A DNA stretch of 31,279 bases from a virus. The notes below the pieces were generated by a model. That model did not search any database. It worked only from the letters and a program-made list of their open reading frames with translations, and was not told the origin of the DNA. The stretch is from positions 2,567 through 33,845 of IMG/VR virus record IMGVR_UViG_3300030117_003097; one strand, given 5' to 3'. Positions within the stretch are counted from its first letter, which is position 1. Each line of letters opens with the position of its first letter. This document shows, piece by piece, positions 7,741 to 9,312 of the stretch. The translations under genes and the position numbers were made by a program.

Positions 7741-8121
7741 TTAGGCTACTTTAGCCAAGCTCTCTACAGTTTCACCAGTGTCAACGCACTCTTGAACTGC
7801 TCTGAACACTTTCATCAGACCTTGCTCAGCTTTGAGCTGTGCTTCATACTTTTGATGTGCATCACGAACTGTCTTTTGCATTTCATCAGTGAAAGCGTCA
7901 GGATCAGATTCAAGCTTGCGTTCCATTCCAAGGAATTTCATCTCAGCTTCATCGAATCTTTCTTTAGTACCTTTGTACATACCACCTTTTACTCTTGTAT
8001 TAAGACCATCTGCTACCCACTTAGCTGAGTAAGAGAAGTCACTATATACTTCACACTTACCTAAGAACGTAAGGATTGCATTTGCTAGCTTTACTTCTTC
8101 TTTGCTTAAATCATTTGTCAT
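7741..8121 (-). CDS. First early gene, hypothetical
   Basis: 126 residues, family not recognised. It is largely helical, with a coiled-coil-like segment rich in Glu/Lys (KERFDEAEMKFLGMERKL, then EMQKTVRDAHQKYEAQLKAEQ). Its G+C is clearly higher than that of most genes in the window, like the adjacent terS region. It is the first gene of the leftward block, has a strong AGGAG ribosome binding site and is followed by hairpin T4, which suggests high early expression. Its first bases and upstream region exist again, inverted and decayed, at 8237-8320. Confidence 0.7.
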   Translation of the reverse strand: MTNDLSKEEVKLANAILTFLGKCEVYSDFSYSAKWVADGLNTRVKGGMYKGTKERFDEAEMKFLGMERKLESDPDAFTDEMQKTVRDAHQKYEAQLKAEQGLMKVFRAVQECVDTGETVESLAKVA

Positions 8122-8174
8122 TAGTTTTCTCCTAGTTGTTTATTGATTGAATGGTCACACCTCGATGATTGGGG

Positions 8175-8207
8175 TAGCTATGTCAAGTCTCGCACTTGAC
8201 ATAGCTA
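8175..8207. repeat. 14-bp perfect palindrome between early and late blocks
   Basis: TAGCTATGTCAAGT (8175-8188) pairs with ACTTGACATAGCTA (8194-8207) around a 5-base loop, CTCGC. No T-run follows on either strand, so it is not an intrinsic terminator. The stem contains a perfect TTGACA hexamer on each strand, but I find no good -10 at a suitable distance. A second small hairpin (TTCGGC-TTT-GCCGAA, 8212-8226) follows directly. It could be an operator, an origin element or an RNA stem. Confidence 0.75.
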
Positions 8208-8284
8208 GGCGTTCGGCTTTGCCGAATCCCCTTGCGCCAATCAGCTAGGTTTGAACAGTCAAGGAATGAATAACTAGGAGAAAG

Positions 8285-8308
8285 ATGACAGATTTGCAAA
8301 GGAAGTAA
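8285..8308 (+). pseudogene. Decayed inverted copy of the first early gene's start
   Basis: On the plus strand AACTAGGAGAAAG is followed by an ATG and an 8-codon frame (MTDLQRK, stop). This is the start region of the minus-strand gene at 8121 with small deletions that break the frame; the nucleotide match continues past the stop to 8320. The ribosome binding site is intact, so a 7-residue peptide could still be made, but the frame looks like debris of the inverted duplication. Confidence 0.5.
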
Positions 8309-8410
8309 AGCTAGCAAATGTGATCCTGAAGTCACGCATAGCCACGAATATTTGCCCTCGCCTTGCTTGGCTGTTGACAAGGTTGTTGCAGATACGCTAG
8401 ACACACAGGC

Positions 8411-8794
8411 ATGAACTCGGTGACGAATAACCATGCTAGTCTGACAGCCAAACAAAGGCTACTCGTTGATACGCTCGTAGCAACGGGTTGCTCCATAACT
8501 GAAGCTAGCCAAGTGGCAGGCTATGCTAAGGGCGACTCAGGCAGAGTCAGTGCGAGCAAGGCCTTGAAGGTTCCACACGTGCAAGCTTACATGATGCAAC
8601 AGATAAGTGAGTCCTTAGGATTGAATGCTACGAAAGCTAGTAGAAAGCTTATGGAGCTTAGCTCTGGAGCTAAAAGCGAGTATGTTCAGCTTGAAGCTAG
8701 CAAGGACATTCTGGACAGAGCTGGTTTCAGAGCGGTAGATAAGCATCAGCATATGCTCATTGGTGAGCTTAAAGTGAACATACAGCTTGATTAG
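8411..8794 (+). CDS. terS: Terminase small subunit
   Basis: 127 residues. LTAKQRLLVDTLVATGCSITEASQVAGY is the N-terminal helix-turn-helix of phage TerS proteins. It is followed by GRVSASKALKVPHVQAYM, the helix GLNATKASRKLMEL, and EYVQLEASKDILDRAG, the usual oligomerisation region. It recognises the packaging site and regulates TerL. The gene is about half G+C (45-58% in the rows I counted), far above the structural genes, and lies among palindromes that could include its own binding site. The ribosome binding site is poor (ACAGG). TTGACA at 8374 with TAGACA 18 bases later is a weak promoter candidate. Six small genes separate it from TerL. Confidence 0.85.
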   Translation: MNSVTNNHASLTAKQRLLVDTLVATGCSITEASQVAGYAKGDSGRVSASKALKVPHVQAYMMQQISESLGLNATKASRKLMELSSGAKSEYVQLEASKDILDRAGFRAVDKHQHMLIGELKVNIQLD

Positions 8795-8805
8795 CCCTCA
8801 GAGCG

Positions 8806-8969
8806 GTTGTTATTGTCTAGGCTTCGCCTAGGCTTTGGAGCATAGTCAAGCAAAGCTGACTATGTGTAAAATGTCTAGGCTACGCCTAGGCTATAACAAC
8901 ATGGCATAGCCATGGGGAGCAAAAACGCAAGTTGTTAGTTACTGGGAGATACCATTCTAACATTTTTTT
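8806..8969 (+). ncRNA. Structured region after terS, possible attenuator-like RNA
   Basis: Segment A (GTTGTTAT, 8806-8813) is complementary to B (ATAACAAC, 8893-8900), closing a multibranch fold with three arms: CTAGGC-TTC-GCCTAG (8817-8831), a 10-bp stem with one bulge (8841-8864, CATAGTC...GACTATG) and CTAGGC-TAC-GCCTAG (8875-8889). B can instead pair with C (GTTGTTA, 8931-8937). C overlaps the 5' side of a weak hairpin (GTTAG 8934-8938 with CTAAC 8957-8961, plus an inner TGG/CCA) that runs into seven Ts (8963-8969). A-B pairing would leave that terminator free, while B-C would disrupt it. Function is inferred; packaging-site or origin DNA is the main alternative. Confidence 0.5.
8814..8892. 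repeat. Two 21-base direct repeats of a palindrome
   Basis: TGTCTAGGCT[T/A]CGCCTAGGCT occurs at 8814-8834 and 8872-8892 with one difference, which falls in the hairpin loop. The copies are 58 bases apart, with another hairpin between them. Each includes the 8-base palindrome GCCTAGGC. The retained stems around a changed loop base suggest selection for structure or for a binding site. Confidence 0.8.
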
Positions 8970-9015
8970 CTTGAAAAGCTCTGAAAAATATTTAATGGTA
9001 GGTTAGGAGGTTGCT

Positions 9016-9312
9016 ATGGCAAAAACACCAGCTTGGCAGAGAAAAGAAGGCAAGAACCCTAAAGGTGGTTTAAATCAGCGTGGTAGAGAGTCTGCTAGAA
9101 AGCAAGGTATGAATTTAAAACCACCTGTTCGTTCTGGTGATAATCCTCGCCGTGCATCTTTCTTAGCTCGTATGGGTAATATGCGTGGTCCAGAAAGAGA
9201 TTCTAAGGGAAAGCCAACTAGACTTCTTCTTAGTTTGAGAGCTTGGGGTGCTAGTTCGAAGGCAGATGCTAGAGCCAAAGCAAGAGCAATTAGTAAAAGG
9301 AATAAGGCGTGA
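9016..9312 (+). CDS. DUF6321-like small basic protein
   Basis: 98 residues, very basic. TPAWQRKEGKNPKGGLNQRG, then NLKPPV, GDNPRRASFLARMGNM and TRLLLSLRAWGASSKADAR form the complete pattern of a small family common in marine phages and labelled DUF6321. Its function is unknown; the charge and the position before TerL suggest binding of nucleic acid or a packaging role (inference). TTAGGAGGTTGCT before the ATG is the strongest ribosome binding site in the region. It is the first gene after the structured region at 8806-8969. It ends in a GTGA overlap with the next gene. Confidence 0.8.
   Translation: MAKTPAWQRKEGKNPKGGLNQRGRESARKQGMNLKPPVRSGDNPRRASFLARMGNMRGPERDSKGKPTRLLLSLRAWGASSKADARAKARAISKRNKA

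Follow-up and report, generated by a model that had tools for sequence, protein, structure and literature searches.

What lies between the small terminase gene (terS) and the structural genes of this phage, and does it act as RNA or as DNA? The window, the whole 31,279-nucleotide stretch analyzed here, comes from a 33,845-base virus contig of a podovirus-like phage, an assignment based on the presence among the window genes of a T7-type head–tail connector, tail proteins, and a Terminase_2 small terminase. The large terminase is PBSX-like by a weak match, and the closest isolate found is Pelagibacter phage EXVC031P Hodr, in which the element described below is also present. A sequence-only reading of the gap behind terS had proposed an attenuator made of three complementary segments, in which pairing of A with B permits termination ahead of the structural genes and pairing of B with C prevents it. 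On comparison with relatives, gathered via TerS, DUF6321, and TerL, this RNA switch, plausible in a single sequence, dissolves and a different signal emerges. That signal is a previously unannotated element, 8914–8983, that is always found behind terS in a large group of marine phages.

The element has a fixed order: a G-run, an A-tract, an unconserved spacer of constant length, a box containing GGTC, CAC, and ACATTATT, and a AAAAAGGTTCG box (Table 1). Within box 1, the A-tract is the most invariant part among relatives, a few of which carry a C-run in place of the G-run. The spacer amounts to about 18–20 unconserved bases, and the A-tract lies 39–40 nt from ACATT in 128 of 139 copies. Box 3 is frequently repeated about 35–42 nt further on in relatives.

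Table 1. Features of the window from terS to the DUF6321 gene.
Feature	Positions	Strand	Description
terS	8411–8794	+	Small terminase subunit, 127 aa; PF03592 Terminase_2, Pfam E 7e-9; PHROG 2538/51
Palindromic insert	8806–8900	+	A (8806–8813) pairs with B (8893–8900); palindromes flank a middle hairpin
Small hairpin	8900–8914	+	CATGGC-ATA-GCCATG
Box 1	8914–8925	+	G-run, short gap, A-tract; GGGGAGCAAAAA in the window
Spacer	8926–8943	+	Unconserved, fixed length, at most 0.30 bit in each of columns 49–67; includes segment C (8931–8937)
Box 2	8944–8970	+	AAGnGGTCYnnCACnnACATTATTT in relatives, GGGAGATACCATTCTAACATTTTTTTC in the window; holds the T-run
Box 3	8973–8983	+	AAAAAGGTTCG in relatives, GAAAAGCTCTG in the window
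DUF6321 gene	9016–9312	+	Next gene after the element in the window; Pfam PF19846

A profile of the element matches the window once (8914–8981, E 1.6e-7) and gives one match per locus in 233 loci, the scan covering the collected loci of relatives. Because the profile was derived in part from these same loci, a blind pattern scan of 2.9 million viral contigs serves as an independent test. It returned 21 matches. In 19 of them the element comes immediately after a terS of the same orientation, 10–122 nt away; the other two are on contigs that start inside a truncated terS. When bacterial genomes were scanned with a pattern, two sites matched, neither accompanied by terS, and we take both as chance. 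The element stays behind terS while the gene that follows changes in identity and distance (0 to 2 kb), and in relatives other genes intervene before DUF6321, whose distance from the element ranges from 0 to about 2 kb. No similar element was seen in the isolates HTVC204P and HTVC034P behind the gene initially taken for terS; that gene belongs to a different family, phrog_2524.

Base-pair covariation is absent from the element, both in 78 copies and in 160 distinct copies (Neff 91), and its folding shows no pronounced bias (mean z from −0.4 to +0.5). The element therefore looks like a DNA site, and from these alignments we regard 8914–8983 as almost certainly a conserved DNA element. A conserved hairpin between the G-run and the C-rich box 2, seen by eye in three loci (L012, L023, and L040), was rejected because no paired columns covary and folding is hardly better than that of shuffles. 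Words of the AAAGGTTCG type number 66 in 160 elements and 21 within the 250 nt after them, compared with 43 on the plus strand and 10 on the minus strand in the remaining 1 Mb or so, where they are mostly coding coincidences. Given this near-confinement to the site, we rejected the idea that box 3 is no more than a ribosome site or a word spread over the genome. Second words of this type, 21 among the 160 elements, do not occur in the window.

What would such a site be for? An element that follows terS in a single copy, has rigid spacing and no conserved structure, and repeats a word in some of its copies is what is expected of a site where DNA packaging begins, and a candidate packaging-initiation site of pac or cos type is the most likely reading of 8914–8983, with a probability of roughly 0.5. 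In this scheme, TerS, which its family predicts to be a helix-turn-helix ring, would contact the A-tract and GGTTCG boxes at their fixed spacing and bend the DNA at the element; it would also guide the large terminase to a nearby position on the concatemer, where the first cut would be made. Linkage to the terminase extends to all 21 blind matches with one element per locus, and the site has the character of DNA without conserved RNA structure. Only 1 of 233 loci has a contig end within the element (L115, which starts inside it); metagenome contigs make this a weak test, and the count gives no sign of fixed physical ends. Since the assembled contigs do not break at the element, a pac-type (headful) site is slightly favored over a cos site. 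One genome that appeared to end just past terS (L272/G001) was set aside, as its two ends overlap by 127 nt and represent an assembly circle. In the source record of the window, both contig ends carry near-copies of a 103-aa gene and tail-fibre-like sequence with no overlap common to the two ends, and the assembly may have been broken there by a repeat.

Several observations weigh on the other side of the packaging-site reading. A packaging site might be expected, although not by strict definition, to vary in sequence with the type of TerS, and no such dependence shows in the element. Its similarity tracks that of TerL and portal (r about 0.5), and any extra correlation with TerS is absent (partial r 0.01 given TerL), which leaves TerS-specific co-evolution without support. 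TerL and portal are tracked equally, which does not single out any one protein as the partner of the element. Also counting against this reading are the location 3′ of terS, as the pac sites of SPP1 and P22 are on the 5′ side of terS or within it, and the place it occupies, where the late genes begin, which suits a promoter as well. We found no literature on pelagiphage genome ends.

A separate reading concerns the fold upstream of the element and is compatible with either a packaging site or a promoter at 8914–8983. Segments A (GTTGTTAT), B (ATAACAAC), and C (GTTGTTA) are where the sequence-only reading placed them, and the two arms it called near-identical palindromes are CTAGGC-TTC-GCCTAG and CTAGGC-TAC-GCCTAG. 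Folding of 8795–9015, which it had suggested, gives −79.6 kcal/mol (z −5.5), a value reached by 0 of 200 shuffles. Closure by A–B holds up, but the three-armed form does not come out as the best one: the best prediction is a single long hairpin that pairs one palindrome with the other. In the window and the two relatives that keep the fold (L352, TerS 96%; L353, TerS 88%), the three-armed form is weaker than the long hairpin by 6–9 kcal/mol as RNA and by 1 to 4 kcal/mol as DNA. A–B is contained in a 31-nt inverted repeat (8806–8836/8870–8900); no longer one was found in the window among repeats with spacings of at most 120 nt. The region is G+C-rich as claimed (42.1% versus 33.8% for the window), but terS itself is at 47.1% and the stretch upstream of it at 45.7%, and the rise is thus regional.

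The pairing of A with B appears to be maintained. The helix is GTTGTTA/TAACAAC in the window and GGTGTTA/TAACACC and GTTAAAC/GTTTAAC in L352 and L353; all 7 pairs form in each of the three carriers, none is broken, and at 5 of the 7 both partners have been exchanged in at least one of the two relatives, a comparison of three sequences aligned by hand. The small hairpin after B likewise retains its self-complementarity in L353, where CATGGC/GCCATG has become GGGGGC-TAT-GCCCCC. A near-perfect hairpin of 95–100 nt is present in the three phages, with z of −7 to −11 when the spacer is folded by itself. Judged from these compensatory changes, the A–B fold is very probably real.

The same fold is dispensable. 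L001, whose TerS is 94% identical, has a gap of 139 nt compared with 221 nt in the window and is missing A, B, and both arms, so that the segments are not all kept in close relatives. From the terS stop codon to the element, the median spacer is 7 nt, and 38 of 162 spacers are at least 60 nt long, several of these containing unrelated strong palindromes. Short palindromes occur at 5.2 per kb in the terS–element spacer versus 1.3 per kb downstream. Such spacers are palindrome-rich and hypervariable, and the fold of the window is therefore one clade's version of them: 8806–8914 is a clade-specific palindrome cluster inserted behind terS, dispensable and without a three-segment switch. Its role may be that of an RNA hairpin behind terS, in processing or stability, or it may act as DNA. 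More specifically, it could be a processing or stabilizing hairpin at the 3′ end of the terS mRNA, an RNase III-type substrate. A near-perfect, compensated hairpin in three phages immediately after the terS stop codon is consistent with this proposal; its absence from L001 and most relatives counts against it, and the same compensatory changes would also preserve a DNA cruciform or a palindromic repeat. We consider this RNA-level role less likely than not.

The palindromes of this region have some further properties. On the bottom strand, many arms (window 8806–8900 and the spacers of L022 and L352) have GNA triloops (GCGAAGC, GCGTAGC, and GCGCAGC), a type known for very stable DNA minihairpins. 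A palindromic core, GATCCTAGATC or AATCCTAGATT, recurs in the spacers behind terS in L068, L070, L286, L317, and L329, which are otherwise unrelated, a pattern suggestive of a palindromic repeat that travels from phage to phage. On the other side of terS, between it and a leftward gene (7741–8121), is a 256-nt imperfect palindrome (8072–8327; 70% identical to its reverse complement, E 2e-20) that includes an inverted copy of the start of the leftward gene. Portions of it also match L352 in inverted order, and a perfect 14-bp hairpin, TAGCTATGTCAAGT/ACTTGACATAGCTA, is located near its center (8175–8207). The element of the window has matches of two kinds: its 5′ half matches L001, with near-identical TerS, and its 3′ part together with the DUF6321 gene matches L004, with a DUF6321 protein 99% identical. 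Over 8900–9312, the window thus looks recombinant, with the change falling within the element.

An activator-dependent late promoter is the main rival to a packaging site for the element itself. CATTAT of box 2 would be the −10 hexamer, box 3 the transcript start and ribosome site, box 1 an activator site about 50–60 bp upstream, and the further repeat a second promoter. The position between terS and the structural genes and the rigid spacing would fit this arrangement, box 3 often stops a few nucleotides ahead of an ATG, and element similarity tracks the structural module. However, there is no conserved −35 beside the −10-like CATTAT, the first position of that hexamer is a conserved C (81%), the boxes are absent elsewhere in the window, and box 3 is retained where the gene start is distant. 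In L028, moreover, a convergent 185-aa ORF follows directly behind the element (20 to 577 nt past it, opposite strand). This last point is tempered by the antisense genes that occur in the late operons of phages. The same locus has no same-strand ORF of at least 50 aa wholly within the first 660 nt past the element. The convergent ORF, the missing −35, and the lack of other copies all speak against a promoter, none of them decisively, and we consider this explanation unlikely.

The attenuator fares worst. Trp-type transcription attenuators have complementary segments upstream of a T-run, and the window resembles them in this respect. The segments are there, A–B is a real helix, and the hairpin at 8934–8961, which runs into the T-run ATTTTTTT as described, folds at −7.4 kcal/mol. 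The window differs from those systems in that the alternative pairing and the terminator are unconserved and no leader peptide was identified. B–C pairing has a probability of 4e-7 in the window, forcing it costs 9.7 kcal/mol, and its pairs decay from 7 of 7 in the window to 5 of 7 in L352 and 2 of 7 in L353, neither of the relatives with the fold thus retaining the helix. The B–C match is not confirmed beyond chance, because a 7-bp match between the halves arises 36% of the time when the 3′ half is shuffled with its dinucleotides kept (1.9% for B specifically). Among 85 sequences, the window and 84 relatives, the window is the only one with an A/B/C trio of at least 7 nt; this count predates L352 and L353, which were judged separately by pair counts. 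Nor is there a conserved terminator: the stem is weak and broken in relatives, and a hairpin below −8 kcal/mol is combined with a T-rich tail in only 10 of 132 element copies. The T-run belongs to a conserved DNA box, where most relatives have ATTATT, and C falls in the unconserved spacer, so that the element overlaps both. An Rfam search of the window and 14 loci found no family above its gathering score. With the fold also missing from most relatives, a three-segment switch is very probably absent here, and A–B and B–C control of termination at 8934–8969 is highly improbable.

Returning to the packaging-site reading, one can imagine a broader version in which a tripartite site with fixed-spaced A-tract and GGTTCG boxes serves the whole marine phage group 3′ of terS, and some lineages add palindromes, preserved for their ability to form cruciforms or hairpins, through which terminase loading or the terS mRNA is tuned. 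As a whole, this picture is speculative and we would not call it probable. Marine viral collections contain many phages of this group, and the packaging start of their genomes is unmarked in the database records examined. A terS-linked element of fixed architecture offers a concrete DNA target for end mapping and Terminase_2 binding tests.

How TerS recognizes DNA has been described as elusive and controversial (PMC9611059), and the known systems resemble the candidate site to different degrees. At a cos site, TerS provides the binding and TerL the nick (PMC9611059). Those of lambda and PaP3 are, like the element, terminase sites with a G+C-rich run beside other boxes, whereas no fixed ends were seen in the contigs here, and no match to the sequences printed for PaP3 and lambda is evident (PMC9611059, PMC7672466). 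The pac site of P22 is also a terS-linked start site for headful packaging, but it is a 22-bp asymmetric sequence inside the gene (PMC9611059), a comparison made here by description. In SPP1, pac has direct repeats at the start of terS, and a bend in the DNA is the proposed basis of its recognition (PMC4737164). SPP1 pac spans promoters and the 5′ start of terS, whereas our element is 3′ of the gene; the likeness to SPP1/SF6 pac is one of plan, in that both adjoin the small-terminase gene, direct repeats occur in the pac site and in some copies of the element, and recognition by shape and bending is proposed for both (PMC4737164).
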